Source of the DNA: a virus
Length of the DNA stretch: 46,078 bases
Strand: one strand, 5' to 3'
IMG/VR virus record: IMGVR_UViG_3300032265_000684
Coordinates: 1-46,078 of that record
The notes beneath the pieces were generated by a model, which was not told the origin of the DNA, did no database searches, and saw only the letters and a program-made list of their open reading frames with translations. The position numbers and the translations under genes are program-made. This document shows, piece after piece, positions 6,143 to 44,086 of this stretch (within the stretch, counting starts at the first letter, position 1; the number at the start of each line of letters is the position of its first letter).

Positions 6143-9100
6143 ATGACTATTCCAGCAACCAATTCTCAATTACTAGTAGCCCAAGATTGGACTAAGATCT
6201 ATCAATCATTCCGCAACGCAGATTTCCAAAGCTACGACTTTGAAACACTGCGCCGTAGTATGATCAACTATCTACAACAGAATTACCCAGAAGATTTTAA
6301 TGACTACATAGATTCTAGTGAATACATGGCCTTGGTTGAGTTGATAGCCTATCTAGGACAGAATTTAAGTTTCCGTATCGATCTTAATGCTCGTGAAAAT
6401 TTTCTTGAAACAGCACAGCGGCGTGACAGCATACTGAGATTGGCACAGTTGGTCAGTTATGTGCCTAGTCGCAACACTCCAGCCAGTGGACTGTTAAAAA
6501 TGGTAGGCGTCGCTACCACAGACAATATTTTTGACAGTAACGGCAATAATCTAGCCAATACACAGATCCAGTGGAACGATGCTACAAATTCTAATTGGTA
6601 TAGTCAGTTTATCACCATATTAAATTCTGCCATGAGTGGTGGTTATGTGTTTGGTAATCCTCAAGGTAGAGACACTATAGGCGGCGTCCTTACAGAAGAA
6701 TATAGTTTTAACAGTAGCAATACCGATGTTCCGGCTTACTCTTTTTCAAAAGCTATCAGCGGAGTCACAACTAATTTTGAGATCGTGCCTGCTACATTTT
6801 TAGGTAAGACCTATATTTACGAACAGACTCCGATTCCCGGAAATGCTCTTAGTTTTCTCTATCAGAATGACAACAATGGATCAGGCAGTGTAGGAACAGG
6901 ATTTTTCTTGTTGTTCAAACAGGGATCATTGACCGCGGTTAATTTTAACATAGATACTCCAGTGCCTAATGAAATCGTTGGAGTCAATGCATCTAACATC
7001 AACAATACAGATGTATGGTTGTGGCAGTTAACCTCCAATGGTAATTATTCAAATTTATGGACACAGGTCCCCAGCACGACTGGAAATAATGTTATCTATA
7101 ACAGCCTAAATCAACAGACACGTAATATCTACAGCGTGCGTACTAGAGATCAAGATCAGATAGATTTAAATTTTGCCGATGGTAGTTTTGGCAATTTGCC
7201 TAAGGGACAGTTTCAGTTATTTTATCGTGTCAGCAATGGATTAAGTTATTCTATCACTCCATCACAGATGAGTGGTATTGCTCTAAAAGTTCCTTATTTT
7301 AATAAATCAGGACAACCGCAAACGCTGACCTTGACCCTGGCTCTACAGTATACTGTCAGCAACGCTGCCACTGCTGAAACCAATGCCAGCATACAGACCA
7401 ACGCACCTCAGGCTTATTACACACAGAATCGTATGGTTACCGCTGAAGATTATAATATAACTCCGTTGACCGTCAGTACCAACATATTGAAAATAAAAAG
7501 CGTGGCTCGTACGACAAGTGGATTGAGCAAATATTTTGACCTTAGTGATGTGACAGGGAAATACAGCTCGACTAATATCTTTGCCAGTGATGGTATATTA
7601 TATAAGTCACAACAAGAAGAAAATTTCCAATTTACCTTTACTAGTAAAAACGATATATTTGTTATTATTAAAAAACAGATTGAACCATTGCTGTTAAATC
7701 CGGGATTGCGATCATTCTACTTAGATAAATGGCCGCGTGCCCTGATGAGTGATTTCAATTTCCATTGGAATCTGTCTAATAAAATTGCTGGTCAAAGTCA
7801 AGGTTATCTCTATGATGCCGATAATAATAAAGCTCCTCAATCTCTAGGATCTTTTGCCAATAATAATCTAATCTATGCGATACAAGGTGCCCTACTACAA
7901 TTTGATAACGGAATCTGGACCACAATCAGTCAGGTAACCGGAGATGGAGCCAACGGCGGTCTAGGTAATTTAGACAATGGTCAAGGACCATTGGTATTGA
8001 GTTCAGTGGTACCAGACGGTGCACTGCTTACAGAAATTATCCCTGTATTTGTCAACAACTATACCTATGCCTTTGAAAGCCAACTGGTCAGTCTCTGCCT
8101 AAATCAACGTAATTTTGGATTAACATTTGATATCGTATCTCGTACCTGGGTTATAATTACAGATACTAATCTAGACCTATCTAGCCCCTTTAGTTTAGAT
8201 CATCATAGAAATTTAGAAAATCTTAATCTAGACGCCAGTTGGTTAATCGCATTTAATTGGATCGGCGATGCTTATAAAGTACGTTATAGATTTACAGATT
8301 ACATATTTGAAAGTGATCGTCAAACAGCTTTTTATGTAGATAGGACTACGACGAATTATGATTTCACTGACAACAAAGTTATAAAAGATCAAATTGACAT
8401 CTTATCAATCAATGCACGACCTAACAATAATGCCGCAGGTATAGGACAGGATTTAGTCTGGCAGATAGACAATTCGATAGTACAGGCAGACGGATATATC
8501 GAACCTAAACGTGTCAAAGTCAGCTTTTATGAAAATGTACAGACCAAGCAGATAGATAACCCAGATGCTTTTGTTAATATAGTGGGAGTTAATTTAGCTA
8601 CTACAGGAACCAATTATGCATCTAATTATGTTGTTTTCAAATTAACCAGCGATGGCGCCACGAGTCAGTTATATACTGGCGCGGTGAATGCTAATTTTGC
8701 CACCCCAAACGATGCCGCATTTGCTATCAACAATGAATTAATATCTGCAAACTATGGAGATCTATTTTATTTCTATGATAATAACTATGATGTAGTTAAG
8801 AGTTATACTCCTACCTCTATCAATTCTTTAGATCCTTGGACCTATGAATATCAATATACTGCCTATCCTGGTAGAGCCGGAATTAAATTCCATTATATAC
8901 ATAACAGCGGAGAAGAAGTAAGGATAGATCCGGCTAAAAGTAATATTATAGACATCTATGTACTAACCGCTGATTATGATACGGCATTTAGGAATTGGTT
9001 GATTTCTGGAATAGGTACCGAGCCGAGTCTTCCTACCAGCGCCGGCCTTGAAAGCAATTATAGTGGTAAACTAGAACTGGTTAAATCTATCAGTGATCAG

Positions 9101-9517
9101 ATTGTATATCAACCGGTTAGTTATAGGATATTGTTTGGAAATACAGCAGATTTAAGTTTAAGAGCCACATTCAAGGCTGTACAAAATCCCAACAGCACCT
9201 CCAGCTCTAATAATATTATTTCTAGAATATTAAATGCTATCAATGCGTTTTTTGCTCTTGAAAATTGGGACTTTGGCCAGAGTTTCTACTTCAGCGAACT
9301 GTCTACCTATGTGATGAACATAATGACACCTGACATCACTAACTTTATTATCGTACCTTTGAGTTCAAACAGCGGATTTGGCAGTTTGTACGAAGTGTCT
9401 TGCCAAAGCAATGAAATCCTTATCAGTGGAGCCACAGCGGCAAATATACAGGTAATCAGCGCAATCACAGCCAGTCAATTAAATTCGACAAAATCAATCA
9501 CCACCAACGGAAGCTGA
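6143..9517 (+). CDS. 6: Baseplate wedge protein, gp6-like
   Basis: A 1124-aa protein of the gp6/baseplate J-like group that forms the inner wedge ring holding the baseplate together. The N-terminal 120 residues are highly typical: FETLRRSMINYLQQNYPEDF, SSEYMALVELIAYLGQNLS, FRIDLNARENFLETAQRRDS and LVSYVPSRNTPASG. The J-like core follows, including a segment ending AYYTQNRMVTAEDYN and NILKIKSVARTTSG around residues 420-460. T4 gp6 is 660 aa, so this version carries several hundred extra residues, mainly Asn/Thr/Ser-rich beta-type inserts at about 110-330 and 560-900. It is followed after 4 nt by the 4515-aa gene, so the two are probably cotranscribed and may contact each other in the wedge. 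Confidence 0.92.
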   Translation: MTIPATNSQLLVAQDWTKIYQSFRNADFQSYDFETLRRSMINYLQQNYPEDFNDYIDSSEYMALVELIAYLGQNLSFRIDLNARENFLETAQRRDSILRLAQLVSYVPSRNTPASGLLKMVGVATTDNIFDSNGNNLANTQIQWNDATNSNWYSQFITILNSAMSGGYVFGNPQGRDTIGGVLTEEYSFNSSNTDVPAYSFSKAISGVTTNFEIVPATFLGKTYIYEQTPIPGNALSFLYQNDNNGSGSVGTGFFLLFKQGSLTAVNFNIDTPVPNEIVGVNASNINNTDVWLWQLTSNGNYSNLWTQVPSTTGNNVIYNSLNQQTRNIYSVRTRDQDQIDLNFADGSFGNLPKGQFQLFYRVSNGLSYSITPSQMSGIALKVPYFNKSGQPQTLTLTLALQYTVSNAATAETNASIQTNAPQAYYTQNRMVTAEDYNITPLTVSTNILKIKSVARTTSGLSKYFDLSDVTGKYSSTNIFASDGILYKSQQEENFQFTFTSKNDIFVIIKKQIEPLLLNPGLRSFYLDKWPRALMSDFNFHWNLSNKIAGQSQGYLYDADNNKAPQSLGSFANNNLIYAIQGALLQFDNGIWTTISQVTGDGANGGLGNLDNGQGPLVLSSVVPDGALLTEIIPVFVNNYTYAFESQLVSLCLNQRNFGLTFDIVSRTWVIITDTNLDLSSPFSLDHHRNLENLNLDASWLIAFNWIGDAYKVRYRFTDYIFESDRQTAFYVDRTTTNYDFTDNKVIKDQIDILSINARPNNNAAGIGQDLVWQIDNSIVQADGYIEPKRVKVSFYENVQTKQIDNPDAFVNIVGVNLATTGTNYASNYVVFKLTSDGATSQLYTGAVNANFATPNDAAFAINNELISANYGDLFYFYDNNYDVVKSYTPTSINSLDPWTYEYQYTAYPGRAGIKFHYIHNSGEEVRIDPAKSNIIDIYVLTADYDTAFRNWLISGIGTEPSLPTSAGLESNYSGKLELVKSISDQIVYQPVSYRILFGNTADLSLRATFKAVQNPNSTSSSNNIISRILNAINAFFALENWDFGQSFYFSELSTYVMNIMTPDITNFIIVPLSSNSGFGSLYEVSCQSNEILISGATAANIQVISAITASQLNSTKSITTNGS

Positions 9518-9521
9518 ATAC

Positions 9522-12500
9522 ATGGCCGCTAGCACAAGCACAATAAGTTCAATCAATTTTTTACCAGAATACCTACGTACCGATAAGAACTCTAAATTTT
9601 TATCTGCTACCTTAGATCAGTGGATCCAACCTGCACAGTTAGAGCGTATCAGCGGTTATATAGGTTCTAAAAACACGCCTAATTATGTATCTACTAGTGA
9701 TGTATATATACCAGAAAGTCTCGCGTTACGCAGGGATTATCAACTAACACCTGCGTTGGTTGTCAATGATGCCTTATACAATATACAAGATGTTATAGCT
9801 CTAGATGATCTTATAGATGAAATTGCAGTCAAAGGCGGTAAGATTGGAAATCTTGATAGGCTGTTGAGAGGAGATTTTTATAGCTATAATCCTTGGATAG
9901 ACTGGGACAAACTGGTTAACTATCAAGAATACTATTGGTTGGTTGAAGGTCCCACCACTATACCTGTGTTTGAAGATATAATCACAATAGATCAAAACAT
10001 CCTCGGTCGATCAACCTATACCAACACCTCTACCGGATTGACCTTGACTAATGGTCTAAAATTAAGATTTACTAATCCTCAAGCAGGTCTATATTACGAC
10101 CGTGATTATTTTGTAGAGGGGGTCGGAACAGATCAGGGTATTAGATTGGTAGATTTCCAAACTTTAATTACTCCCGAACCGATTGCCAGTTTATATAAAG
10201 ATCAATTTGATTCTAAAAAATTTGATTATTATAAATTTGATGATCAAGAAACGCTTCCGCTAATTCCCGAATATGTGACCATCAACAGGGCCAGCCAAGA
10301 TATCAACAGCTGGAGTCGTTATAATCGGTGGGTACATTCCGAAGTTATACGCACCACAGCAGAATTCTTAGGACAGATCCCCGATTATCCTGTATCGGCT
10401 CGAGCACAACGACCTATTATAGAATTTGCCGCAGATCTTAAATTATATAATCACGGAACTCTGGGAATTCCTAATGTTGATTTTATTGACAATGTAACAG
10501 TAGATCCTACAGTGATCAATGGCACTGATGGTTACTATATTGATCAAGTACTATTACAAAAAGGCAATAGAATAATATTCAATGCTTCGTCAAATCCAAA
10601 CATCATATATCAGGTCGATCTTAAAACAAAAAAATATCAATTAGAATTAGTAGAGTCGATGGTTGTAACTGTGGGATCACAGGTGACTATAGATCTAGGC
10701 GTAGAAAATCATGGAACAGATTGGTGGTTCAACGGAACTAACTGGCAACTTTCTCAACAACACACGACGATAAATCAAGCACCTCTATTTGATTTGTATA
10801 ATTCAAATAAAGTAAGCTACAGTGATTTACCCAGTAATTTTAGAGGAAATAAAATATTTGGATATACCTTGGGAACAGGGGTATCGGACAGATATCTAGG
10901 ATTTCCCTTAAAATATCGCAATGCTGTAGAACAAGGAGATTATCTGTTTTCAAATTATTTTATGACAGATACCATAGCTGAAGTGGCAAGCTCTCAACAT
11001 GTCACTGTGGTTCCTACCAGTCAGTCCTATCTAAAGTTTTCTCATACCGGAGTTGATGATCGATATGTTAATGTATGGATCTCGGCTGTAAATTATAGCC
11101 TACCTGTACTACAGTTTCAAACGATAGGAACAGCTACAAATTCTATCGCTGTGTCGGCTATAAACACTCCTGCGGAGTTTAATTACGAAGTCTATTTGAA
11201 TACCTCTATATTGTCCAATGCCGCTACTTCCGTATCGGTCAATTCCGGAACCTATCTAATAAACTTTAACAATACATTACCGTCAGGAACAAATGTTTTA
11301 TTAAAATTTTATACAACTGCCACAGCGACCTCTAGCGGATATTATGAACCTCCTTTGAGTCAAACCAATAATCCATTAAATGGTCCTATATCACAATTTA
11401 CACTTTCAGAACTCAGCGATCATTTGAAGACGATGACAGAAAGGAATACTAATTTTGTAGGAATATTTCCCGGAGCCAGTAATCTAAGAGATTTATCTAA
11501 TATCGGTCAATATGGAACTAGATTGATATCTAGTGCTGATCCTATCGCGTTTGCTGATATGTTTATAGGTAAAAAAGAGCACAGCGTTGTTGATGCCATA
11601 ACCAAAGTTTCCGATCACTATAATCAATTCAAAGCACAGGTAATGGCGCAGATGAATCGTATGGTGGATCAACAAGATCCTGTAAGATTGTTGGATGAAA
11701 TATTATCTGTAATCAATCAAGACAAGACTCCTCAAAGTTTATATTATCTATCAGATATGATTGGCTATGGGACTAATAAAAACACTACATCAACAGTGGT
11801 TACTGTTGCTCATTATATAGGAGAAGAGCCCGCTGAATATCCTATCGCTGATGTTTTTTCTATTACAGAATTAAGTCTAAGATCTGTATTGGTATATCTC
11901 AATGGGACCCAATTAATTTTAGGTAGTGACTACAATTTTGTTCTCGGCGATGCTTATATATCTTTTGATAAAATTCAACTGAACATTGGTGATGTAATAA
12001 CCGTAGTAAACTATCCAGATACCTCTGGATGTTATATTCCCCCCACTCCTACTAAATTAGGATTATATCCAAGTTTTGAACCAAAAAAATATATAGACAA
12101 TACCTATATTATTCCTCGTATGGTCATACAAGGACATGATGGTAGTATCACCATAGCCTATGATGATTTCCGTGATGATGTTTTATTAGAATTTGAAAAG
12201 CGTGTGTACAATAATATTAAAACGCAGTACAGACCAGAATTATTTGATATAAATTCTGTACTGCCCGGCGCTTTTAGATCTAATCAATACAGTCTTTCCG
12301 AAGTAAATGATATACTAGAATCGGGATTTATCAAATGGTCTGGCCTCAATGGTGTGGATTATACAAACAATAATATATTTGATGAAACCGATCCTTTTAC
12401 ATGGAATTATCTAGGCGGATATATTTCTTCTCTAGGAATATCTGTAGGCGGTTATTGGAGAGGCATATACAAATATCTATATGATACAGATCGACCACAT

Positions 12501-15500
12501 ACTCATCCTTGGGAGATGTTTGGATTTAATAAAAAACCAGATTGGTGGGACGAGCAGTATGGTGAAGAATATGAGAATTTTTGGTTAGATGTAGAAGCAG
12601 GTATCATACGAAACGGCGATCGTGCCGGCACCTACAGCGTCTATGCCAGACCTGGTATTGTTAATTTGGGATTGATCCCAGTTGATCCCCAAGGTAATCT
12701 CATAGATCCGTCGACTATAATTTCAAACATAACCATATATAATCGTAGACAAGGTTGGCAGTTTGGAGATCAGGCACCGGTTGAAACAGCATGGAGACGT
12801 AGCAGTTACTATCCTTTTGCGGTACAGCGTCTATTGGCCTTAACCAAACCTGCTAGCTATGCCTCCTTGATGTATGACCTCAGTCGTGTCACTAAAAACA
12901 TAGCCGGTCAATGGACCTACGGAGCCAATAACGCATTTTTTAATTTTACAGATCTAGTTATACACAGTGAAAATTCTTCGTTGACCAGCGGTTATAGTCA
13001 AATGATCAGTGAGATTGGTAAACAGCGTACACAGAATTATATTTCTGAATTGCGTAATGATTTAAGTTATGCTAACTTTAATTTGTTTTATAAAGTAGGT
13101 GGATTTGTCAGCAAAGATAAACTGCAGATCACGATAGATGCTTACGAGCCAAATAGTAATAGCCCCGGAGCTATATTACCTGTTGAAAATTACACACTAA
13201 GATTAAATGTAAGTAATCCTATTATTTCCGCTAGTATGTCTGGTATGATTGTACAAAAATCCACCGACGGTAATTTTTTAATCAAAGGGTATGATACTCA
13301 AACGCCTTATTTTAATGTTTATACTCCTGTTCGTACATCCAATACTCCGACTGTTACTGTTGGTGGAGTGAGCGAACCGTATGTAACTTGGACCAACGGA
13401 ACTGCCGCAGGCGGTGCTTTATTGAGCAGTGTTGACACTACTTCTGCTGTAGGAGCCGGGGGAGTGTTTTATCAAGCTGGACAGATAGTCTCCTATGGTT
13501 CTAGTTATTATAGAGTTAAAATTAGCCACCAGGCTGAAAATAGTTTTAATCAAGACTACTATCAATTATTATCAGGACTTCCGACTACAGGGGGAGCATC
13601 GGCACAGATTGCTGATAGGTTTGACAAGGTGGTAAAAGAAATTCCTTACGGTACGGAGTTCAGTAATATACAATCTCTATATGATGTTATCGTTGGGTAT
13701 GGAGCTTGGTTAAAAGATCAAGGGTTTGTATTTGATGAATATAATAATCAAATTAACGATGTTATAAATTGGGAATTTTCTGCTAAAGAATTTCTTTACT
13801 GGACTACTCAAAACTGGGCCACCAATAATGTAATAACATTGAGTCCTTTTTCTGATCAGATCAAATATGCGTACAATCAGTCAGTAGTAGATAACCTGTT
13901 TGATACATTTTATGAATACAGCTTATTATTGGCCAATGGCACACCCTTTCCTAAAAACAACCTGTTTGTAAACAGAGAAGCAGGAGTCTGCACAATATCT
14001 TCTAAGTCAACCACTGACGGAATATATTTTGTAAGATTAAATTCTGTACAAAAAGAACACAGTCTAGTATTCAACAATTCTACTATCTTTAATGATGTTA
14101 TCTATGATATAGAAACGGGGTATCAACAACAGCGTATGAAGCTGAGCGGATTCCGCACTAAAAATTGGACAGGAGATTTATTCAGTCCAGGATTTGTTTA
14201 TGACAATGTACAAATCAACAATTGGCAGATAAACACGCCGTATCAAACAGCCGCAGTGGTCCTGTACAATGGTACATATTATTCTGCCAAAACAAATTTA
14301 GAACCCTCGTTGACTTTTGATGTTACCCAATGGTCGGCTCTAGATTCAAAACCTACAGGCGGCCTGTTGCCTAACTTTGATTATAAGATAAATCAGTTCC
14401 AAGATTTTTATAGTTTGGATATTGATAATTTTGATGCCTCCCAAGAAAAAATGGCACAGCATCTTACAGGTTACACACCTCGTGTTTATCTAAACAATAT
14501 TTTTACTGATCCTATCGCCCAATATAAATTTTATCAAGGATTCATTCGAGAAAAAGGTACACGCAATGCGGTACAGAAACTTTCCAAAGCCACGATACAG
14601 AATTTACAAGGGACTATTGACTTTAATGAAGAATGGGCCTTCCGTATAGGAGAATACGGTAGTTTTTCTACCTACAAAGAATTAGAAAGCACACTGGTGG
14701 AAGGAACGTTTTTTGAAAATCCACAGATCATTAATTTTGTTAATAAAAAACCCGACGTCAATAATTTAATATATTACAGTACCGCTAGTAATCGAACCAT
14801 CATACCTGACAATTATGATCCTACGCAGACATTCTATACTACCAGTGGTACTTACCTAAACAATGCCTACATATTACCTACAGCCGGATATGTTAGGGTC
14901 GATGATGTAACATACACCGCCTACAACGAAAATAGTTTATTATCTATAACAAATAATAATGAAATTTTAACAGGTGATACTGCTTGGTTGGGATTTAAGA
15001 AAACTGGCGATTGGGATGTTTTAAGATATACAGTATCTCCGGTCAGAGTGGTCAATGTTGAAATTGGCATTTACGGTCAAGAACTGATCCTTACAACCAA
15101 CCAATCTCATAGATTGTCTAAGGGTGATATTGTTTCGTTGCTGAATTATACCAGCCAGATTGATGGAATTTATATTATACAATCGATCGTCTCCAGTAAT
15201 CAATTTAGTATTGCATCGACTATACAAACAATAGATCCCACGCTGGTTCCTGGTACTGGACAGTTGTTTACGTTTTCTACAGCCAGATCCAACACGTTTG
15301 ATACATTGCCTACAGACCGTGAATTGTTATCATTGCCTGAAGGATCTCTATTCTGGGTCAATAGCGATCGAGAAGACGGAACAGGTAGTTGGACAGTTTA
15401 TAATAAAATACAAAATTATTATCCGATAGTAATCGCCAGCGGCATTAAAAATCAAAATGAACAACTGGGATATAGTATCAGTAGGGTAGGCAGTGACAAT

Positions 15501-18500
15501 CTGTTTATCGTCGGTAGTCCAACCTGCCCCGATCCTGTTAAAAACGATCCAGGGTATGGAAAAGTAACAGCCTATGTCAAGGTAAACGGTAGTCCGGTGC
15601 CTCGATTTAGATATTTTATAAATCCTGACGAATATAAACCTTATTACAACAGTTCTCTGTCGACCTCTACTGGATTTGGTTCTGCTGTAGCCTATGATGA
15701 TTATATTTTTCCGGGAACACAAAATGGGTTGATTTTTGCCGGTGCTCCTAAGGTTAGTCGTGTTAGAACAGTTTACGGAACCAATTTATTAAACACTGCC
15801 ACAATATCTACCCTCACTGATTATAGCACATTTATCGAACAGGGATTGGTTACTATCAGCAGTGTTGATCCAGTGAGCAATGAAGAGACAAGACAATTAA
15901 CATTGGTTAGTCCCTATCCGCAGAGTTACGAACGTTTTGGTTCGGAGTTATACGTACAATTAAACACTGGTTCTAAATTATTATTGGTAGGTGCTCCAGG
16001 AAAGATTACTGGTGTGGGTTCAGTATATGCTTATCGAGTAGGATATTATACTACATCCACTGATAGATCTATACAAGAATATAAACAAGGATATAGGACC
16101 ACAAGCACTGTTACCTATGCTTCGGTGCGTTATATTAACACTTTGACTCCAACTACCTCCACCGCTGGAATGTTATGGGGGCACAGCATCAGCGGATCAG
16201 ATGATGGAAGTGTGATTGCCGTAGGCGCACCTGGTTACAAGGATCGCACAGGTCTTGTGACTATATTCAACGGCACCAACACCACACAGGTCATACAATC
16301 TCCTTTCTCCTCAGGCGGTGGTTTCGGGTCTCATGTTGAGGTCAGCGCAGACGGTAGTTATCTAATAGTCAGTGCTCCAGATGTATATGGATTTGCTGAT
16401 AATAATGATAGTTATGGAAAGGTAGCGATCTATAAGAAAGAAGGCGGACTATTCAATACTGATTCTACTGTACAGATTTTACATAATCCTTTATATGATT
16501 CTAAAATGCGATTTGGTTATAACATTGTGATCAATACTGCTACTGATATATTGGTTATATCTGCTCTAGGAACGGATTATATAGATACAACGTTTGATGA
16601 AAATCAAACTAGAAATATCGGAGGAAAGAAATTTGTTAGTTCTATATCCACAATCGATGACAGCGGAACCACTGAATTTTTTACAGAAGTAGAACGCACC
16701 GGAACTGTTTATGTCTACAATAGACTACACAATCGATTTGTTCTTTCAGAAGAATTACGTCCTCAAACTGTCTACGAAGGCGCTGATCACGGTCATGGTT
16801 TACAAATAGCCGCCGATAATACCATATTGGTCAGTGCTCCTGCAGTAGACAATGCATTAACGGGATCTTATTTTTATCAATACGCCAGCACTTCTACAGA
16901 TTCGTTCAGTTGGAAAGCCCACAGAGTACAAGAAAATCTAGTTGATATCAGTACCATACAGCGTTTGGTGTTAATTGACTCCTATAATGAAGCAGTTGTT
17001 GATTATTTAGAAACTATAGATCCTGCCAAAGGCTATATTTCTGGACTAGCTGATCAAGAAATAAAATATAAATCTTTATTTGACCCAGCTGTATACGCCA
17101 TTGGCTCAACCGGTACTGTGGTTAATCCTTCTGTTAATTGGACCGACGATCATGTTGGGGAGTTATGGTGGGATCTCAGCACAGTAAAATATCAATGGTA
17201 TGAACAAGGCGATCTAGAATACAGAAAAAATAACTGGGGATCGACATTCCCTGGATCTAGCATTGATGTTTACGAATGGATAGGAAGTACCTTATTACCC
17301 AGTCAGTGGAGCAGACAGGCAGATACCGTTGTGGGACTTACACAAGGCATCAGTGGTCAACCTAAGTATCCTGATGATTCGTCTGTGGCCGTTAAACAGA
17401 CGTATGATCCTATTACAGATTCTTTGAGCAACTATTACTACTATTGGATAAAAAATACTGTTATTGTTCCTGCCGTTCGTGGAAGGAAAATAAGCGCCTA
17501 TCAAGTGGCCAGTATAATAGCAGATCCTGTGGCCTATGGATTGCAATATGCTACCCCCATTAGTGCAGATGCCATAGCAGTGGCCAATATAGGTGCCATG
17601 CCGGTGGGTGAACGTATCAATTTGAATATTGCCATGGATCTCAATCCAGACAATGTCCCTAAACACACTGAATGGTTGTTGTTACAAGAAAACAGTCAGA
17701 CCAGTTTACCTAACAGTTTACTAGAAAAGAAATTATTAGACAGTCTTATAGGTCACGACAAGCTAGGTAATCTAGTCCCAGATCCCGCTCTAAATCCTAG
17801 ACAGGCCTACGGAGTTAGCATACGTCCTAGGCAGAGTCTGTTCAAAAATCGTTTCCAGGCGTTGAGAAATCTGTTAGATTTTTCTAACAACGTATTAATC
17901 AATATACCTATAACTGGAAATTATAGTTTTACTAATCTCAATCGTTATGAACCCATCCCCGATCGATATAGTCACCAATGGGATCAGATCGTAGAAGCCC
18001 TAGAAGAAAGAGACGCGATTGATGTTAGATCATTTACCGCAGCCACTGCGGCTCAATTAACGGCCACAATATATGACGGTAAATTAATCAATGTTACTAT
18101 AGTCAATCCTGGAATTGGGTATCTAATATCTCCTACAGTCACAGTGGTAGGCAATTCAACGACTCCCGCAGTCATCACAACAGAAATTGACAATTTTGGA
18201 CAGATCGTCTCCGTCACTCTAGTAGATGGGGGAAGCGGCTATTATGCGACACCAGAGTTGTCGGTTAGAGGATATACAGTCATCGTTAGAAGCGATAGTG
18301 AAACCAATGGGCTTTGGGCCAAGCATACCTGGGATGCCTATAATAACAGATGGGCTCGTGTGCATACACAGAGCTATGATACCAGATTGTATTGGAATAC
18401 GGTTGATTATGCCAGCGCAGATTTTAATCAATATAAGATAATTGATTATACCATAGCATCTACTTATGAATTAACCACCTTGGTTGAAGCTACTCCTGGT

Positions 18501-21500
18501 CAATATATCAAGATCAACAATATCGGTGATAATAGATCAGCGATAGTAACTCCGACCACAGCGGCATATGGGAGTTTCAGTGACGGATATGATCTACTGT
18601 GGAGCCAAAATGGTACTATACAGTTGAGTAATAACCTATGGGATGTTCCGGATAGCCAGTTGGGCTTCGACGAATATAATAATTTTGACACGACCTTATA
18701 CAATCAAGCACCCGACATTGAACTAGAATATATACTAACAGCATTAAAAGACGACATTTTTATTAACGAATTAAAAGTTAATTGGAATCTGTTCTTTTTT
18801 ACCGCAGTCAAGTATGCCTTATATGAACAGAAGTTATTAGATTGGGCATTTAAGACCACATTTATAAATGTAAACAATTATGCCGGTGCCTTAGATCAAC
18901 GTCCTGTTTACAAAATTACTGACAGTACTTACTTTGAAGATTATATCAACGAAGTTAAACCTTATCACACAAAGATACGACAGTTTATTACCAATCAAAC
19001 AGTATTAGATTTGTCATCGTCGTATAATACAGATTTTGATTTGCCTTCTTATTATAATTCTTTAGATAATCAGTTTGAAACAGTTTCAGTTGGCAATGCT
19101 TTAACCAATGTATATCCTTGGAAATCCTGGAGTGATAATTATTCTTACGGTGTAAACACTGTTGAAATAATTGATCCAGGTACCCAATATACCAGTGTTC
19201 CCATAGTAGAGATCAGTTGTCCTGATCTATCTAACGGAACTACTGCGACAGCACAGGCCTATATAGGCGGTGGAAAGATTTATCTCGTAGAAATCTTGGA
19301 TGCAGGATCTGGTTATACAAAAACTCCAACAGCCGAGATCGTTGGAGGAACCACAGGAACCACTGCTACAGTTTCCTTAACACTACTCAATGAAAAAGTT
19401 AGAAGGAATACTGTAGGTATTAAATTTGATCGCATTTCTATTGCTGATCAAATGGGTAATATTGATGTAGTTGACGAATTTTATTGCGATGGAAGTAAAA
19501 GTGAATTTATCTTGTCTTGGCTAGCACAAGCAGATAAACAGACCATTGATATCACACTTGATAATGATTTGGTTTTAATATCTGATTATACGATAAAATA
19601 CTATACAGGTAACTATAACGGATATAATAAAAAATATAGTAAACTGGTTTTCTTAAATTATATTCCTAAACTTGATCAGATTGTTCAAATAAAATATAAG
19701 AAAAATGTAGAATTAATGTCTGCTTTTGAACGAAGCAAATATTTTACATCTATCTTAGATTTAACCACAGCGACATCTGTAGCATCTACAGGTAAAAATT
19801 TACAAGGTGTCATGTTTGATCATACCAGTGCCTGGACAGAACCGTATCCAGCCTATGATGATTTTGCCTGGGCAGATGCGGTCGATAATTACACAGTGGC
19901 CACATCCACTGCAACTTCGGTAACTGTGGCATATCCTGATACAAAATGGCCTGTGAGAACAATTATCCAGTTAGATTCAGTAGTTTCAATTAAACAATAT
20001 CAATATGCCAACGTTATAGGAGTTGCTACTACTCCTTTTGATACTTCGACTGTGGTGGTGGTTATTGCTGTTGATACATCGACTAATTCTGTAACATTAA
20101 ATTCCGGAGTAAAACAAAGACGTGATATCCCAGCAGGCAGCTCTATTGAATTTTGGAACAACGATACTAACTTTAGTATTTTAGATGTAGCAACTTCTGC
20201 AACGTCTTGGAGCACAGTGACTTCTAATGCTTTAAGCCAATACATGGGAATCGATCCTGATGATTTTGCTCTAAACACATCTACGGGATTATATCTCCTA
20301 GGTGGAAATGTTAATTCAAACACCTTGTTTGTTGACGGCGATGGTTATTACACTGAACGGACAAGTTTTACTCCAGAAGAATTAGTAGCAGGACAGTCAT
20401 CTGATAGTCTGGGAGTCAATGTATACACCAAGGATCGTTCGGGTGCTCCTACGGTGGTTGTGTCATATTTTGATATTTTGGCCAATTCAACGTCTACAGT
20501 TAAATTAGATGTGTTACCTCCCAATGTTGACAGTATCACAGTGATATTAAATCCAATGGGCACATTTGAAAATACTGTGCTTGAATATTCTACTTCAACA
20601 GAGTGGACAGCAGTTAATCAATTTTCTATAGATTGGGTCAATCCAACATTGATTATTGCTCCGCAGCCTCAAAGCGGAACAGTGGGTTATACTATGCTTT
20701 TAATCAATGGCACCGAATTTGTAGATTACAGTCATCAGGCCACAGCATCTGGTATTGACAGTGTACAACTACGAAGTCTTGGTGCTTACGACAGTTTGTT
20801 AAGATCTGCTTATGTAACTCTAGACGGAGTGGCTGTATCTGCAACGACTTCTACATCGACGATTTATTACACAATGAATTATGTTGATCCAGATGGGTCG
20901 CAGACGAATCGTAGAGCCGCAGTAGATATCTACAATATATCAACATCTACGGCACACCTGGCACAGGCTTGGTTCTTTGACAGCGAATACACAGGATTTA
21001 ATACGATACAGAGCCAGTCATTTGTCTATGATGGATCAACCAGTTCGTTCCTAATGAGTTATCCTCCAGGCAATTCTGGCCCTGCTGAAGGCAATATGAT
21101 AGTTGAGGTTATAACTCCACAATACACCAAACGATTAATGCCTCCTGATATTGCCTATTATCAATACGTAACTGGTGGTTCCGACACATTTAATATTCCG
21201 ACTACGTTTGGTCAACATCGAGCTCCGTTTACTGCTTACAACATTCGGGTATACCTCAACGGAAATTTATTGGCCTTTGGCTATGATTATAATTTAGCCT
21301 ACGGCAGTCAAATTGTAATGGTTCCTAACGTGTTGGCTGACGGTGATACGGTGGCTATCATATCCTATGCGCTAAACGATACTTTGAATTATGATTTCCG
21401 TGTTTATGGCAACATGTTGATGCTTACAACCAATGTTGGGCAAAATTCTCCAACAACCCTTGATCCCGGAGATGTGGTAAAAGTTATTACATTTAATAAT

Positions 21501-23069
21501 CAGGATAATTTACTGATGGAGACACAGATATTTCCTGCCAATCTTTCTGGAACATACCAGATCAGTCGACCTATTCTTGACAGTAATTATGTATGGGTAT
21601 CCGTTGATAATCAGTTTTTAATCAGTCGAATTGATTTTACTGTGTTAGATGATCAACGCACCATACAGATAGCAGATCAGTTTACAGGAAATCAAGTACG
21701 AGAAGTTATAGTAACCAGCATAACAACCAATGACGACCCTGTGTTGGGTTATAGAATTTTTACTGATATGTTTAATCGTACGCAATTTAAACGATTGAGC
21801 AAGGCAAACACCACTTATCTAACACAGCCATTGTATGTATATGATACTGAAATACATGTTCGTGACAGTTCGGTGTTGAGCAAACCTTTGGTATCTAAAC
21901 GTATTCCCGGAGTAGTGATTATAGACGGTGAACGTATCGAATATTATCGTGTAAGTAACAATGTCCTATCACAACTGCGTAGAGGAACATTGGGTACAGC
22001 ACCTAAAAATCACAGTCAGATATATACCAAAGTTATTGATCAGGGAGTTGGACAAACCGTGCCCTATGCTGAAAGCATCCGTAGACAGACTTATATTAAT
22101 ATAGGAACTACAAATACCTATGTGATAACCACTACCAATACCACTACCTATTATGATACCCAGATAGTGGTACTATCTAGTGGCACTGGAGCTGTTATAA
22201 AAAGCGACACTCCCTACGATAATCTAATCGAAGTATATACTCAGGTCAACTATGGTACTGTTACAATATCCACGGCCACTGGTGATTTTAATCCGTTGGA
22301 TCTAACTCCTTATGCCACCGGCAGCGGAACAATAGAAATAGATATTCCACCACAGCCCAATGATGCAGGCTATGTGGTCCAGACTTGGTTTATTGGACAG
22401 GGTGATCCAGGAGCCAGCGTACCTTATGTGTTTAGAAACGATGGTATGACCATACAAACTGACCCTGTAGATACCGGTATTCCTCTACGTGCAGAAGATC
22501 AAATAGCTGTATATTATGGCGGACGAGTATTAAACAAAAATGGCACATTCCAACAGGATCTTGATAGAGCCTATGATAGTTCGCCTGTGCCCTCGACGAC
22601 AGCCACAGTGGCAACCTTGATAGACCTGCCACCTACCAAAGTTGTTGGTACGGCCTATATAACTACAGATACTAATCAAGTATGGGTATATACGAGATCT
22701 AATAGATACGACAGCTATCTCGGCTATGAATATCAAGGATTAAATTATGTGCCACCAGAATTTACCCTCGATCCTGTAACCCAGCAATTAACGCTAAATA
22801 TACCAGAAGCCCTGGAATCTCATCTACCTGTACGTGTAGACATCGTAAAACGAGACTATGTGGCTCTAACAGAATGGAATGATCCGGATCCTATGAACCT
22901 TGGTAATACATTGAGTTTAATGCAGAGTACTTCAACACAGGCTAAATTCTTAAGAAATCAGCCTGCCGAACTGCCAGACGCATACTACTATGGTGGTGAT
23001 CCAGATCTAACAGATACATCAGGATTTGCCCTAACACTACCAGACGGCAATCCTTTAGAGGACAATTAA
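9522..23069 (+). CDS. Giant baseplate or tail-fibre structural protein with seven FG-GAP repeats
   Basis: An uninterrupted 4515-codon gene, 29 percent of the window. The N-terminus (SSINFLPEYLRTDKNSKFL, then LDQWIQPAQLERISGYIGSK) resembles large virion proteins of T4-like aquatic phages. Residues about 1980-2450 hold seven repeats of F/W-G-x-x-I/V followed by an I-V-G-A-P or V-S-A-P strand, at about 1983, 2052, 2139, 2220, 2268, 2331 and 2423. This is the FG-GAP pattern of integrin-alpha beta-propellers. Other modules are a CBM5/12-like piece near 1567 (AAVVLYNGTYYSAK), paired GSGYxxxP repeats near 2860-2918 and 3207-3280, an alpha-helical NEVKPYHTKIRQF region near 3140, and YLNGxxLxxGxDY strands near 790 and 3910. 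Position after gp6 suggests a gp7/gp8-like peripheral wedge or a fibre connector. The exact T4 counterpart was not recognised. Confidence 0.75.
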   Translation: MAASTSTISSINFLPEYLRTDKNSKFLSATLDQWIQPAQLERISGYIGSKNTPNYVSTSDVYIPESLALRRDYQLTPALVVNDALYNIQDVIALDDLIDEIAVKGGKIGNLDRLLRGDFYSYNPWIDWDKLVNYQEYYWLVEGPTTIPVFEDIITIDQNILGRSTYTNTSTGLTLTNGLKLRFTNPQAGLYYDRDYFVEGVGTDQGIRLVDFQTLITPEPIASLYKDQFDSKKFDYYKFDDQETLPLIPEYVTINRASQDINSWSRYNRWVHSEVIRTTAEFLGQIPDYPVSARAQRPIIEFAADLKLYNHGTLGIPNVDFIDNVTVDPTVINGTDGYYIDQVLLQKGNRIIFNASSNPNIIYQVDLKTKKYQLELVESMVVTVGSQVTIDLGVENHGTDWWFNGTNWQLSQQHTTINQAPLFDLYNSNKVSYSDLPSNFRGNKIFGYTLGTGVSDRYLGFPLKYRNAVEQGDYLFSNYFMTDTIAEVASSQHVTVVPTSQSYLKFSHTGVDDRYVNVWISAVNYSLPVLQFQTIGTATNSIAVSAINTPAEFNYEVYLNTSILSNAATSVSVNSGTYLINFNNTLPSGTNVLLKFYTTATATSSGYYEPPLSQTNNPLNGPISQFTLSELSDHLKTMTERNTNFVGIFPGASNLRDLSNIGQYGTRLISSADPIAFADMFIGKKEHSVVDAITKVSDHYNQFKAQVMAQMNRMVDQQDPVRLLDEILSVINQDKTPQSLYYLSDMIGYGTNKNTTSTVVTVAHYIGEEPAEYPIADVFSITELSLRSVLVYLNGTQLILGSDYNFVLGDAYISFDKIQLNIGDVITVVNYPDTSGCYIPPTPTKLGLYPSFEPKKYIDNTYIIPRMVIQGHDGSITIAYDDFRDDVLLEFEKRVYNNIKTQYRPELFDINSVLPGAFRSNQYSLSEVNDILESGFIKWSGLNGVDYTNNNIFDETDPFTWNYLGGYISSLGISVGGYWRGIYKYLYDTDRPHTHPWEMFGFNKKPDWWDEQYGEEYENFWLDVEAGIIRNGDRAGTYSVYARPGIVNLGLIPVDPQGNLIDPSTIISNITIYNRRQGWQFGDQAPVETAWRRSSYYPFAVQRLLALTKPASYASLMYDLSRVTKNIAGQWTYGANNAFFNFTDLVIHSENSSLTSGYSQMISEIGKQRTQNYISELRNDLSYANFNLFYKVGGFVSKDKLQITIDAYEPNSNSPGAILPVENYTLRLNVSNPIISASMSGMIVQKSTDGNFLIKGYDTQTPYFNVYTPVRTSNTPTVTVGGVSEPYVTWTNGTAAGGALLSSVDTTSAVGAGGVFYQAGQIVSYGSSYYRVKISHQAENSFNQDYYQLLSGLPTTGGASAQIADRFDKVVKEIPYGTEFSNIQSLYDVIVGYGAWLKDQGFVFDEYNNQINDVINWEFSAKEFLYWTTQNWATNNVITLSPFSDQIKYAYNQSVVDNLFDTFYEYSLLLANGTPFPKNNLFVNREAGVCTISSKSTTDGIYFVRLNSVQKEHSLVFNNSTIFNDVIYDIETGYQQQRMKLSGFRTKNWTGDLFSPGFVYDNVQINNWQINTPYQTAAVVLYNGTYYSAKTNLEPSLTFDVTQWSALDSKPTGGLLPNFDYKINQFQDFYSLDIDNFDASQEKMAQHLTGYTPRVYLNNIFTDPIAQYKFYQGFIREKGTRNAVQKLSKATIQNLQGTIDFNEEWAFRIGEYGSFSTYKELESTLVEGTFFENPQIINFVNKKPDVNNLIYYSTASNRTIIPDNYDPTQTFYTTSGTYLNNAYILPTAGYVRVDDVTYTAYNENSLLSITNNNEILTGDTAWLGFKKTGDWDVLRYTVSPVRVVNVEIGIYGQELILTTNQSHRLSKGDIVSLLNYTSQIDGIYIIQSIVSSNQFSIASTIQTIDPTLVPGTGQLFTFSTARSNTFDTLPTDRELLSLPEGSLFWVNSDREDGTGSWTVYNKIQNYYPIVIASGIKNQNEQLGYSISRVGSDNLFIVGSPTCPDPVKNDPGYGKVTAYVKVNGSPVPRFRYFINPDEYKPYYNSSLSTSTGFGSAVAYDDYIFPGTQNGLIFAGAPKVSRVRTVYGTNLLNTATISTLTDYSTFIEQGLVTISSVDPVSNEETRQLTLVSPYPQSYERFGSELYVQLNTGSKLLLVGAPGKITGVGSVYAYRVGYYTTSTDRSIQEYKQGYRTTSTVTYASVRYINTLTPTTSTAGMLWGHSISGSDDGSVIAVGAPGYKDRTGLVTIFNGTNTTQVIQSPFSSGGGFGSHVEVSADGSYLIVSAPDVYGFADNNDSYGKVAIYKKEGGLFNTDSTVQILHNPLYDSKMRFGYNIVINTATDILVISALGTDYIDTTFDENQTRNIGGKKFVSSISTIDDSGTTEFFTEVERTGTVYVYNRLHNRFVLSEELRPQTVYEGADHGHGLQIAADNTILVSAPAVDNALTGSYFYQYASTSTDSFSWKAHRVQENLVDISTIQRLVLIDSYNEAVVDYLETIDPAKGYISGLADQEIKYKSLFDPAVYAIGSTGTVVNPSVNWTDDHVGELWWDLSTVKYQWYEQGDLEYRKNNWGSTFPGSSIDVYEWIGSTLLPSQWSRQADTVVGLTQGISGQPKYPDDSSVAVKQTYDPITDSLSNYYYYWIKNTVIVPAVRGRKISAYQVASIIADPVAYGLQYATPISADAIAVANIGAMPVGERINLNIAMDLNPDNVPKHTEWLLLQENSQTSLPNSLLEKKLLDSLIGHDKLGNLVPDPALNPRQAYGVSIRPRQSLFKNRFQALRNLLDFSNNVLINIPITGNYSFTNLNRYEPIPDRYSHQWDQIVEALEERDAIDVRSFTAATAAQLTATIYDGKLINVTIVNPGIGYLISPTVTVVGNSTTPAVITTEIDNFGQIVSVTLVDGGSGYYATPELSVRGYTVIVRSDSETNGLWAKHTWDAYNNRWARVHTQSYDTRLYWNTVDYASADFNQYKIIDYTIASTYELTTLVEATPGQYIKINNIGDNRSAIVTPTTAAYGSFSDGYDLLWSQNGTIQLSNNLWDVPDSQLGFDEYNNFDTTLYNQAPDIELEYILTALKDDIFINELKVNWNLFFFTAVKYALYEQKLLDWAFKTTFINVNNYAGALDQRPVYKITDSTYFEDYINEVKPYHTKIRQFITNQTVLDLSSSYNTDFDLPSYYNSLDNQFETVSVGNALTNVYPWKSWSDNYSYGVNTVEIIDPGTQYTSVPIVEISCPDLSNGTTATAQAYIGGGKIYLVEILDAGSGYTKTPTAEIVGGTTGTTATVSLTLLNEKVRRNTVGIKFDRISIADQMGNIDVVDEFYCDGSKSEFILSWLAQADKQTIDITLDNDLVLISDYTIKYYTGNYNGYNKKYSKLVFLNYIPKLDQIVQIKYKKNVELMSAFERSKYFTSILDLTTATSVASTGKNLQGVMFDHTSAWTEPYPAYDDFAWADAVDNYTVATSTATSVTVAYPDTKWPVRTIIQLDSVVSIKQYQYANVIGVATTPFDTSTVVVVIAVDTSTNSVTLNSGVKQRRDIPAGSSIEFWNNDTNFSILDVATSATSWSTVTSNALSQYMGIDPDDFALNTSTGLYLLGGNVNSNTLFVDGDGYYTERTSFTPEELVAGQSSDSLGVNVYTKDRSGAPTVVVSYFDILANSTSTVKLDVLPPNVDSITVILNPMGTFENTVLEYSTSTEWTAVNQFSIDWVNPTLIIAPQPQSGTVGYTMLLINGTEFVDYSHQATASGIDSVQLRSLGAYDSLLRSAYVTLDGVAVSATTSTSTIYYTMNYVDPDGSQTNRRAAVDIYNISTSTAHLAQAWFFDSEYTGFNTIQSQSFVYDGSTSSFLMSYPPGNSGPAEGNMIVEVITPQYTKRLMPPDIAYYQYVTGGSDTFNIPTTFGQHRAPFTAYNIRVYLNGNLLAFGYDYNLAYGSQIVMVPNVLADGDTVAIISYALNDTLNYDFRVYGNMLMLTTNVGQNSPTTLDPGDVVKVITFNNQDNLLMETQIFPANLSGTYQISRPILDSNYVWVSVDNQFLISRIDFTVLDDQRTIQIADQFTGNQVREVIVTSITTNDDPVLGYRIFTDMFNRTQFKRLSKANTTYLTQPLYVYDTEIHVRDSSVLSKPLVSKRIPGVVIIDGERIEYYRVSNNVLSQLRRGTLGTAPKNHSQIYTKVIDQGVGQTVPYAESIRRQTYINIGTTNTYVITTTNTTTYYDTQIVVLSSGTGAVIKSDTPYDNLIEVYTQVNYGTVTISTATGDFNPLDLTPYATGSGTIEIDIPPQPNDAGYVVQTWFIGQGDPGASVPYVFRNDGMTIQTDPVDTGIPLRAEDQIAVYYGGRVLNKNGTFQQDLDRAYDSSPVPSTTATVATLIDLPPTKVVGTAYITTDTNQVWVYTRSNRYDSYLGYEYQGLNYVPPEFTLDPVTQQLTLNIPEALESHLPVRVDIVKRDYVALTEWNDPDPMNLGNTLSLMQSTSTQAKFLRNQPAELPDAYYYGGDPDLTDTSGFALTLPDGNPLEDN

Positions 23070-23070: not shown

Positions 23071-26000
23071 ATGGCAGATATAACAAAATTACCCATATTA
23101 ACTTCGGCTACAGATGGTACCTATCTATTAGCGGTAGATAACAATGTGGCCAAACGTTTGCCATTTCCCGGAGCTGGACAATTACGTGGTAATCAAGGTT
23201 ATACAGGCAGCTTGGGATATATCGGCAGTAAGGGCACAGACAGTACTGTTCCAGGTTTTGTAGGTAGCAAAGGATATACGGGATCGACAGGCTATACGGG
23301 TAGTCGAGGTGCTTTTGATGCTATAGGTTTTACAGGTAGCCGTGGATTCCAAGGTCCACACGGCCCGAATGATTTACTCAATGCCAGCGCACTTCCGGAT
23401 AGTACTCCTTCTGCCAGTGCTACAGAATATATTGTAGGGGTTTCTCGAGTAGGATCAACATCAACGCCCATAGTATCGCATACCAATCCCATAGTGTTTA
23501 ATACCATATTAGGTAGTTTAAGCGTAGGGACCACTGCCGCGCATGGGACATTAAATCTAAACGGCACACAGTCTTCTATATATTTTGGTGTAAACACCAC
23601 CGCCACACTACATCAACTTTGGTCCAGTCCCAATGGGGATCTTACACTAGATATTGACACGGCCGATGCAGCCAGTGGTGCTAATTTTTATCTATCACAG
23701 GTTGGCGCACATAAACTCACAATGGCGCCTAATGGTAACATTGGCGTCCTCACAGACACTCCTGCCGAGTCTTTAGATGTTTCTGGAAAACTACGTATAT
23801 CTAGTTCTAATGTTATAGCCAAGAGCTATTCTAGACTCTACGCTCTAGATGACTCTAGACTCTACTGGGAAAATCAACGCTATGCGGCCACAGTTTCTTC
23901 CCCCACCAACGTGCTATATGCTGGTACGAGAATAGTAGGAGATATAAATTCTGCAGAAACCGGAGGAGTATTCAGCTTTGACAATGCGCCTGTTGCCCAG
24001 GCAGGGGTTAGTTCGTGGACACAGAGATTAACCATCATTGAAAATGGCAATGTTGGTATCAATGTTACTCGTCCTAACAGTCTGTTAACAGTCAACGCTA
24101 ACGTAAACACCTCCAATGTAGTTCCTTACGCATCGGCCGCAATGCAGGTCGTAGGCGCAGACAATCAGGCTAATCGTGTTGTTATGAATGCCTTCGGTGG
24201 TAGCGGGTTTACTCCTACCAGTGCCAACGTCATAGGTGCAGTATTAGCAGGCGGCACTGCCGCTAGTCCAGTCGCAACTCCGCTGGGATCACAATTACTC
24301 TCAATATCAGCAGGTGGTAGAGGATCTACAAGATATCTTGCAGGGTTAGCCAAGATAGAGATGATCAGCGAAGGATCCCAATTTGGAGTTAATCCGTCAT
24401 TCACAGATACCAGTGCCGCTACAGCGATAAAATTCAGTACCAGTGATTACGGAACTACCAGTACAGCATTAAGAATGTGGATACAGTGGGATGGAAAAAT
24501 AACCACAGGTGGGGATACATTCGGTGGATCTAGTGATGTTAATATCAGACAAGCAGGTACCGCTGTAAATCCAGGTAGTCTCAGTTTGGCCGGTTCGGGA
24601 TTGCAGGCTGGAGCAGGTACCAGCTATATCACTATGGGTAACAGCGATGGCCTAGGTGCTGCCGGACCTGTAGTCATACAGAGCAATAATAGATATTTCC
24701 AAATAGGCACAGGCACTAGTTTTGCTTCTAGTTCGGGCGGAACCTTCCAATTCAATCTAAAATTAGATCCTAGCGGAAACGGCACGGTATTTGGTAACTG
24801 GGAAATAGATGGCGGTGCGGCAGCCAGTGCTACCTTGTCCACGATCAAATCTACATTCAATCTCGTAGATACTACAGCGGCCACAGTAAATTTTGCCGGA
24901 GCAGCCACACAGATCAACATGGGCAATGCCACAGCGGCCACGATATTGACCCGTCCTGGTACTATTGTAGGAGCTAATACTACACAGAATTTATATAATT
25001 CAGTGGCCACAACAGTTAACGCATTTGGCGCGGCCACAGCAGTTAATGTAGCCGCCAATGCCGCCGGAGCTACCACACTGGTACTGGGCAATAGTTCTAA
25101 TAACAATATTTTAACTATCAATGGATCAAGCAGTTCTACCATCAATGGATCAAGTGGAGCCACTACGGCCAATGTGTTTAATACCAATGCTACTACCGGT
25201 AACCTGTTTGGCGCGGCTACAGCGATTAGTATTGGTGCAGCCACCGGTACATTGACCGTAGGTAATCCTACACTGACGATGACCAACGGTAGCGTATTCA
25301 ATATGAATGGTAATAATCCCAGTATTGTAACAAACAATACCGGCGCCGCTAGTGTATTCAACACCAATGTCCTTGCAGGCAATTTATTCGGCGCTGCCAC
25401 GTCAATTAGCATTGGTGCAGGTTCTGGTGCAACCACTGTTAATAATCAACTTAAAGTTTCCGGTGGTTTAAGTGCTTCTGCAAGCACCACAACAGTTAAT
25501 GTACAATCATTGCAGGTCACTGCCGGTGGTATAGGCATCACAGGTGATAGTAAGTTTAATGACAGTCTAGCAGTTGGTAATAATTTATGGGCAAGGAGCA
25601 ATCTCGACGTCCACGGTGGTAATATCACCAGTGATCAGACTACATTCAATATCATTAATACCAATGCTACTACAGTGAATGCATTTGGTGCGTCAACTGC
25701 ATTAAATCTAGGTGCAACATCAGGTACGGCAACGATGGGCAATCCTACCGTAGTGGGTACACAGGCTACACAATATCTATGGAACACAGTGGCCAATACG
25801 GTATATTTTGCCAATGCGGCCACAGCACTGACGATTGGCGCCACAGTTAGCGGAACATTAACAGTAAATCCAGGAACTGTAGTAGGATACAACTCTACAC
25901 AAAACCTATTCAATACCGTGGCTACCACGATGAATTTTGCCGGTGCGGCTACTAGCATAAACATGGGTGCGGCCAGCGGAACAACCACTATTAACAATAT

Positions 26001-38062: not shown

Positions 38063-39277
38063 ATGCCATACTTAATATATAAAACCAACGGAAAAGTATT
38101 AACCACAGTAGATGATTCTAATGTAGACATCAGCACCAGCATCAATCTGGTGGGAAAAAATTACGCAGGTTACGGACTAGCGGTAAACGAAAATTTCGTA
38201 TATCTGCTAGAGAACTTTGCCAACACCCAACAACCGGCTAAACCTATCATAGGTCAAACTTGGTTTGACACCAATCCCACACAGAATAAATTAAAAGTAT
38301 ATGATGGAGCCAGTTTCAAAGGCCTGGCCACTATCCGTATACAGCCCGGTGTTCCTGTATATAGCGTGGTAGGTGATCTATGGTGGGATACACAGAACCA
38401 ATTATTAAAAACCTTTGACGGAAGCTCTTATCAAATCATAGGACCCAGCCTCAGCACCAAAGCCAACTGGTTACCTAATGATGAATATTCAACCAGCAGT
38501 AGTCCGGCCATTACCATACTCAAAGGCAGTATTGGTAACAAGATTGTTGCTGTGATGAGTGAAACTGATCCTAGTTTTATTCCTTATCAAAGTCAAGATC
38601 TTGATCCAGATCGTTTTCCCTTAATACGCCGTGGAATAACTTTGGCCAATGCTTATAATGGAACGGATCCTACTATTCCTCAAGGAAGCACTAAAGGAAG
38701 CGGTTATTATTTCTGGGGAACAGCCGCAGAATCACTATCAGCAGTTTCGGCCAATAGTATTAATCTACAATCGACTACAGTAACAACGCCTTATTATGTT
38801 CCATTGGCCAGCACCAGCACAGGAAACAGCACGTTGGTCACAGATAGTGGTATTACCTATGCCAGTGGTGTTCTAAATACCATAGCATCCGCCGCTCGTT
38901 TCGCCGACCTAGCAGAACGTTATGAATCTGATGAGGTATATGATGAAGGTACGGTACTGGTCATCGGAGGTACAGCTGAAGTTACTACTACATATATCGC
39001 AGGTGATACAAGAGTAGCTGGAATTGTCAGCAAAAATCCAGCATATATGATGAATTCCGACGCTGGAACCGACGAAACTCACCCCTACATCGCCTTAAAA
39101 GGTCGGGTACCTTGCAAGGTAATGGGTCGTGTACAAAAGGGCGATCTGCTGGTAACTAGTTCATCGATCGGATACGCACAGGTCATGACCGACGGTCATA
39201 GTCCAAATGCTGTAATAGGAAAAGCCCTAGGCAGTCAAGACCAGGGCTTTGGGGTCATAGAAGTACTGGTAATCTAA
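38063..39277 (+). CDS. Fibre-region structural protein with shared N-terminal module and conserved C-terminal domain
   Basis: A 404-aa protein. The start at 38063 is preferred because it begins 2 nt after the previous stop and matches its paralogue's N-terminus (MPYLIYKTNGKVL beside MSYTIYNSDGTIL). The alternative ATG at 38039 would overlap the upstream gene. The module NLVGKNYAGYGLAVNENF with PIIGQTWFDTNPTQNKLKVY recurs here. Residues from about 285 form a conserved phage C-terminal domain: ADLAERYESDEVYDEGTVL, then GDTRVAGIVSKNPAYMMNSD, PYIALKGRVPCKVMGRVQKG and DLLVTSSSIGYAQV. This domain is frequent at fibre C-termini, where it may act as a trimerising chaperone. Its stop codon overlaps that of the thymidylate synthase gene on the other strand. 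Confidence 0.83.
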   Translation: MPYLIYKTNGKVLTTVDDSNVDISTSINLVGKNYAGYGLAVNENFVYLLENFANTQQPAKPIIGQTWFDTNPTQNKLKVYDGASFKGLATIRIQPGVPVYSVVGDLWWDTQNQLLKTFDGSSYQIIGPSLSTKANWLPNDEYSTSSSPAITILKGSIGNKIVAVMSETDPSFIPYQSQDLDPDRFPLIRRGITLANAYNGTDPTIPQGSTKGSGYYFWGTAAESLSAVSANSINLQSTTVTTPYYVPLASTSTGNSTLVTDSGITYASGVLNTIASAARFADLAERYESDEVYDEGTVLVIGGTAEVTTTYIAGDTRVAGIVSKNPAYMMNSDAGTDETHPYIALKGRVPCKVMGRVQKGDLLVTSSSIGYAQVMTDGHSPNAVIGKALGSQDQGFGVIEVLVI

Positions 39278-40155: not shown

Positions 40156-40164
40156 GGTGTTCCT

Positions 40165-40195
40165 TAAAAAGATATAGGGGCATCAGCCCCTATAT
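40165..40195 (-). terminator. Rho-independent terminator
   Basis: Read on the minus strand, a perfect 10-bp stem ATATAGGGGC / GCCCCTATAT with a 4-nt loop is followed by TCTTTTT. It lies between the stop of the 202-aa gene and the ribosome site of thyA. The plus-strand side lacks a T tract, so it acts on minus-strand transcription. Confidence 0.85.
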
Positions 40196-40215
40196 TGGTG
40201 TTACATCTGAGCCGA

Positions 40216-40824: not shown

Positions 40825-40836
40825 CTCGATCTCCTA

Positions 40837-41100: not shown

Positions 41101-41114
41101 TTTAATTCTTTTCC

Positions 41115-41396: not shown

Positions 41397-41407
41397 TATA
41401 TACTCAC

Positions 41408-42679: not shown

Positions 42680-42708
42680 CTGGGCTCCTTGTTAACTGTA
42701 TATATACT

Positions 42709-42910: not shown

Positions 42911-42931
42911 ATTGTTTTCCTTTTTATATGT

Positions 42932-42952: not shown

Positions 42953-42957
42953 GTGTA

Positions 42958-44040: not shown

Positions 44041-44086
44041 GATATTCCTTTGTTAGTGTGTTGATATTTACTGCCTTAATAGTAAT

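Follow-up and report, generated by a model that had tools for sequence, protein, structure and literature searches.

The question raised by this locus is whether the giant protein encoded directly after gp6 carries an integrin-type propeller, and what such a domain would do in the phage. The window is the whole stretch of 46,078 nucleotides that was analyzed (IMG/VR record IMGVR_UViG_3300032265_000684). A reading of its sequence alone had proposed seven FG-GAP repeats between about residues 1980 and 2450 of this protein, and had suggested that they form a closed, integrin-alpha-like propeller. The open reading frame is intact, with ATG at 9522 and the stop codon at 23069, and encodes 4515 aa.

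The whole protein was searched with a repeat HMM, which was trained on blades from four other contigs, the window and its two nearest relatives (L001 and L002) being excluded from the training set. Exactly seven matches were obtained, and all of them were within residues 1982-2469. In a control with 200 shuffled sequences, the repeat HMM gave no match in 188 and one match in 12. The FG-GAP glycines of the seven blades are listed in Table 1, and blade 7 ends near residue 2469. The number and the position of the repeats had thus been read correctly by eye.

Table 1. Features of the giant protein gene and its upstream neighbour (nucleotide positions in the window).
Feature	Position	Strand	Basis
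gp6-like baseplate wedge subunit, directly upstream	6143..9517	+	phrog_10646 baseplate wedge, E 7e-289
Giant virion protein, 4515 aa, gene position after gp6	9522..23069	+	PHROG 10938 "virion structural protein", 1079.7 bits at E 0; 87 phage records with homologues
Conserved N-terminal region, residues 1-1789, common to propeller-less jumbo phages	9522..14888	+	tblastn coverage up to 88% in PA5oct-like phages; many invariant columns
Variable interval, residues 1790-2500, propeller inside	14889..17021	+	0 invariant columns among 14 homologues between 1789 and 2501
Propeller, seven-bladed, integrin-type FG-GAP, residues 1982-2469	15465..16928	+	Repeat HMM, motifs, AlphaFold2, profile and fold searches
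Blade 1 (FG Gly 1983, GSP Pro 2000, cage Gly 2013)	15465..15674	+	HMM, motifs, predicted strands
Blade 2 (Gly 2053, GAP Pro 2076, Gly 2108)	15675..15935	+	HMM, motifs, prediction
Blade 3 (Gly 2140, GAP Pro 2159, Gly 2166)	15936..16175	+	HMM, motifs, prediction
Blade 4 (Gly 2220, GAP Pro 2237, Gly 2244)	16176..16322	+	Best repeat match, 27.5 bits; motifs
Blade 5 (Gly 2269, SAP Pro 2286, Gly 2299)	16323..16511	+	HMM, motifs, prediction
Blade 6 (Gly 2332, Leu 2349 instead of Pro, Gly 2394; long 2-3 loop)	16512..16787	+	HMM, motifs; pLDDT <50 in part of loop
Blade 7 (Gly 2424, SAP Pro 2440)	16788..16928	+	HMM, motifs, prediction
C-terminal anchor, conserved, residues 2501-2800, after propeller	17022..17921	+	A5 alignment; at least 588 IMG/VR relatives

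With the window sequence alone, the Pfam match was weak and below the cutoff (FG-GAP_2, E 0.011), and no significant match for the propeller was found in Pfam, PHROGs, or the PDB sequences. Therefore, profiles made from homologues were needed. The homologues exceeded the Pfam FG-GAP_2 cutoff of 23 bits (24.6, 26.8, and 43.8 bits). When a sequence profile of 45 homologues was compared with the PDB, the best match was integrin alpha-4 (E = 4.5e-12), and integrin alpha accounted for 44 of the 45 matches at E ≤ 0.1. AlphaFold2 with the 45-sequence alignment predicted a propeller with confidence (pLDDT 83.6, pTM 0.84), and each repeat had four strands across most of the domain. In the Foldseek analysis, 301 PDB matches were obtained at E ≤ 0.001; integrin alpha chains came first and occupied all of the top 50 places (best E 1.3e-14). 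The TM-score was 0.55 by the query and 0.69 when normalised by the alpha-V chain (440 residues). Since the rmsd against the matched structures was 7 to 10 angstroms, the overall fold agrees, and the loops and details differ. The prediction of a closed seven-bladed fold with four-stranded blades is well supported. The repeat HMM, AlphaFold2, and the profile and Foldseek searches agree, and together they give strong support for an integrin-alpha-like seven-bladed propeller in a giant structural protein whose gene directly follows gp6. That the repeats are another class of propeller, or an unclosed array merely resembling FG-GAP, is highly improbable: the window sequence alone does score under the Pfam cutoff, but the homologues exceed it, and integrin alpha was first in both the profile and the fold searches. 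The propeller had also been described as buried in the centre of the protein. This holds for the sequence only, and not for the particle as far as the data show.

The Cage motif, defined for integrin propellers, consists of Gly, 13-20 residues, Pro, 2-15 residues, and Gly (PMC3192720). Among the 45 homologues, the FG glycine is kept in 44-45 at each of the seven blades, and the GAP proline and the second cage glycine are each conserved in six of the seven blades. On average, 14-21 residues lie between the FG glycine and the GAP proline. The repeats thus have the Cage motif, with 2-3 loops in blades 2 and 6 that exceed the defined length. No DxDxDG Ca2+-binding loop was detected in the window domain, and of the seven loose matches in the 45 homologues, no more than a few lie within a 1-2 loop. 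Such loops are present in three to four blades of animal integrins and in seven blades of the bacterial examples (PMC3192720). Thus, the propeller is of the integrin type by fold and Cage motif, without integrin-type calcium sites.

The integrin alpha propeller (PF01839 FG-GAP) shares the seven FG-GAP/Cage blades with the phage domain and is its best match in both sequence and fold. In the phage domain, however, Ca2+ loops are almost absent, and blade 6 does not have the GAP proline. Thigh, calf, or other integrin domains were not found by Pfam in the 4515 aa; the flanks are those of a phage virion family, and the whole protein is not of the integrin alpha subunit class. Seven FG-GAP/Cage repeats are also present in the integrin-type propellers of bacteria (PMC3192720) and in repeat proteins of the FG-GAP_2 type (PF14312), and it is the FG-GAP_2 model of Pfam that the phage homologues match. 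Whereas the bacterial propellers have a Ca2+ site in every blade (PMC3192720), the phage propeller has nearly none. When the loops were compared, the 2-3 loops showed the largest variation in length, and the 1-2 and 3-4 loops showed the lowest residue identity. Because these two measures disagree, a single variable face was rejected. The long 2-3 loop of blade 6 (16563-16706, residues 2348-2395) has a TTFD-type signature, which is common to most propeller homologues; this loop is partly poorly modelled.

Homologues of the family (PHROG 10938) are present in 87 phage records, including PA5oct, RaK2, GAP32, SCTP-2, and Atu_ph07, and the baseplate wedge gene directly precedes the family gene in most annotated examples. 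The members PA5oct gp355, RaK2 ORF070, GAP32_230, Atu_ph07 gp180, and SCTP-2 gp140 have the same position after gp6, conserved N- and C-terminal blocks, and a comparable giant size (3326-4555 aa), with 23-29% identity over the alignment. By its gene position and flanking blocks, the window protein is a member of this post-gp6 giant protein family of jumbo phages. The record of PA5oct gp355 carries an "ESI-MS/MS" note. In phAPEC6 virions, a 381.88-kDa protein with 17 unique peptides is listed directly after the baseplate wedge protein (PMC7247149), and we infer from its position and size that it is a family homologue. On the evidence of PA5oct and phAPEC6, the family is a virion protein family. 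Gene position and virion association together suggest a location at the baseplate. Identity with T4 gp7, which the sequence-only reading had put forward for comparison, was rejected: hhalign against a single gp7 sequence detected no similarity (probability 0.1%, E 0.79), and only the gene position agrees.

Elsewhere in the giant protein, GxGYxxxPxV-type repeats with a PHROG 460 match were observed at residues 2837-2920 (18030-18281) and again near residues 3203-3270. On the minus strand, 39274-46018 encodes thymidylate synthase, an HNH endonuclease family protein, an ATPase, and an exonuclease-like fragment.

In the alignment of 14 members, many columns are invariant as far as residue 1789 and from residue 2501 onward, and no column between these positions is invariant. 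The length of this variable interval is 190-192 aa in GAP32/RaK2, 251 in a Vibrio phage, 316 in PA5oct, 489 in SCTP-2, and about 1465 in Atu_ph07 and Phosso (cultured range, 190-1468); it is 711 aa in the window protein. The window protein differs from the cultured members in its FG-GAP repeats, which the repeat HMM detected in none of the nine cultured homologues examined. GxGYxxxPxV-like repeats occupy part of the interval in Atu_ph07 and Phosso. The interval of SCTP-2 appeared LamG-like by eye; this assignment was rejected, as there was no Pfam or PDB match.

A scan of IMG/VR with the propeller as the query gave 113 relatives. In the fetched loci, 95 ORFs had at least three repeat matches, most commonly seven; this count takes in the window itself and some contigs that were fetched twice. 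After removal of identical ones, 128 distinct intervals from IMG/VR remained, each with at least two repeat matches, and seven was again the commonest number (67 of 128). About 55 of the 128 intervals came from a search with the C-terminal flank, not with the propeller. Thus, the presence of the propeller in these intervals was not produced by the search. No repeat match was detected in L016, a more distant environmental relative, within the approximately 600 residues available after the N-terminal block. The best reading of this distribution is that the propeller is clade-defining within a large uncultivated jumbo-phage clade. Relatives in bacterial genome contigs, which were sought for the host, were not found with a single search pattern.

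The window domain gave no match in the phage records at E 1e-5. In a looser search with another member as the query (E up to 1), one separate FG-GAP protein each was found for Phosso and for an uncultured phage. Sinorhizobium phage Phosso encodes a separate giant protein (L109:5752-14244, recorded as 3692 aa) that contains 19 FG-GAP_2 stretches (E 4e-174), and this region also encodes an S8-family peptidase. The stand-alone 393-aa "hemagglutinin" of Atu_ph07 is a fold match. UFOVP1367_22, a stand-alone FG-GAP gene (473 aa) located among the tail genes of an uncultured phage, resembles our case in that its propeller would lie in the adsorption apparatus or close to it, whereas the window propeller is a domain inside a giant protein and not a separate gene product. 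The receptor-binding protein of phi11 is also said to place a propeller in a phage tail, one of a different kind in a much smaller protein.

The propeller was less conserved than its flanks by a median of 22 percentage points (929 pairs), and its divergence followed that of the flanks (r 0.83, all pairs). In three pairs (L163/L165, L179/L180, and L162/L164), the propellers were more alike than both flanks, which hints at occasional exchange of the propeller by recombination between phages. Free swapping was rejected: since only these 3 of thousands of pairs exceed the flank likeness by more than 0.03, exchange is at most occasional. The dN/dS in the propeller was well below 1, and thus strong diversifying selection was not indicated. 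Within the giant protein, residues 3400-4000 were as variable as the propeller.

The next gene (23071-27825, 1584 aa) possesses collagen-like repeats near the N-terminus and has a virion structural PHROG match. When the flanks were accounted for, the partial correlation with this gene was 0.16 for the propeller, 0.62 for residues 3400-4000, and 0.60 for residues 4000-4190. Since residues 3400-4190 co-vary with the next gene, the docking of fibres is better assigned, as a candidate role, to the C-terminal part than to the propeller. This result is suggestive only, because the sequence pairs are not independent but share ancestry, and neighbouring regions share linkage; the next gene was the one candidate partner in the test.

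The integrin-type propeller fold is used by animals for cell adhesion, and propellers are common scaffolds for protein interaction. Our preferred explanation, to which we give about an even chance, is that the propeller is an exposed binding module on the giant baseplate-region protein, most likely for adhesion to the host surface. The propeller evolves faster than its flanks yet keeps its blade number, propellers of the FG-GAP type are found repeatedly in other viral proteins, and lectin-type adhesion domains have been described on jumbo-phage virions (PMC7824862). Against this, the loops single out no face, strong diversifying selection is not seen, residues 3400-4000 are equally variable, and inheritance of the propeller is mostly joint with that of its flanks, without free swapping.

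The main rival explanation, less probable but substantial, is that the propeller serves as a docking hub for virion proteins, such as side fibres or neighbouring wedge proteins, and not for the host. The scaffold role common to propellers fits this explanation, as do several fibre-like genes downstream. Furthermore, none of the measured intervals lacks the domain, even among the loci fetched by the C-terminal flank, as expected of an obligatory structural part. However, the propeller evolves faster than the adjoining structural parts, and the near independence of its divergence from the collagen-containing next gene is mild evidence against a hub to which that fibre would dock. It is improbable that the propeller is an insert with no specific partner, which fills space or adds stability in an enlarged baseplate and diverges by relaxed constraint: cultured relatives are without the propeller and their intervals accommodate other content of widely differing length, but nearly all of the 45 homologues, even those at 32% identity, retain the blade number and the cage positions, and the low dN/dS indicates purifying selection.

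The gene encodes the post-gp6 giant structural protein of T4-like jumbo phages, and in the uncultivated clade a complete seven-bladed integrin-alpha-type propeller is set between its two conserved scaffold parts. According to the adhesion explanation, these parts, probably at the baseplate or tail tip, would present the propeller on the outside as a binding head that lacks the usual calcium sites, and this head would most likely help to fix the virion to a partner on the host surface, beside the fibres encoded downstream. More tentatively, and with a lower probability than the docking hub, the clade-wide, calcium-site-free head beside the gp6 wedge might be a host-contact sensor of the baseplate, possibly one that triggers the tail.

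Integrin-type propellers in animals and bacteria are already known, as are FG-GAP proteins in other viruses and elsewhere in phages. The new observation is a propeller set in a giant protein of the baseplate region, which is present across a large uncultivated clade and has nearly no calcium sites. No annotation library names the propeller in the giant protein, the literature searched contained nothing joining FG-GAP, phage, and baseplate, and two jumbo-phage reviews mention neither FG-GAP, integrin, nor propeller. Our results place an integrin-alpha-type propeller in the baseplate gene cluster of a large, so far uncultured jumbo-phage group. The variable interval is a defined place in the family where whole modules come and go, and the propeller is a concrete domain, suitable for expression, that may be used to seek the surface partner of these phages.
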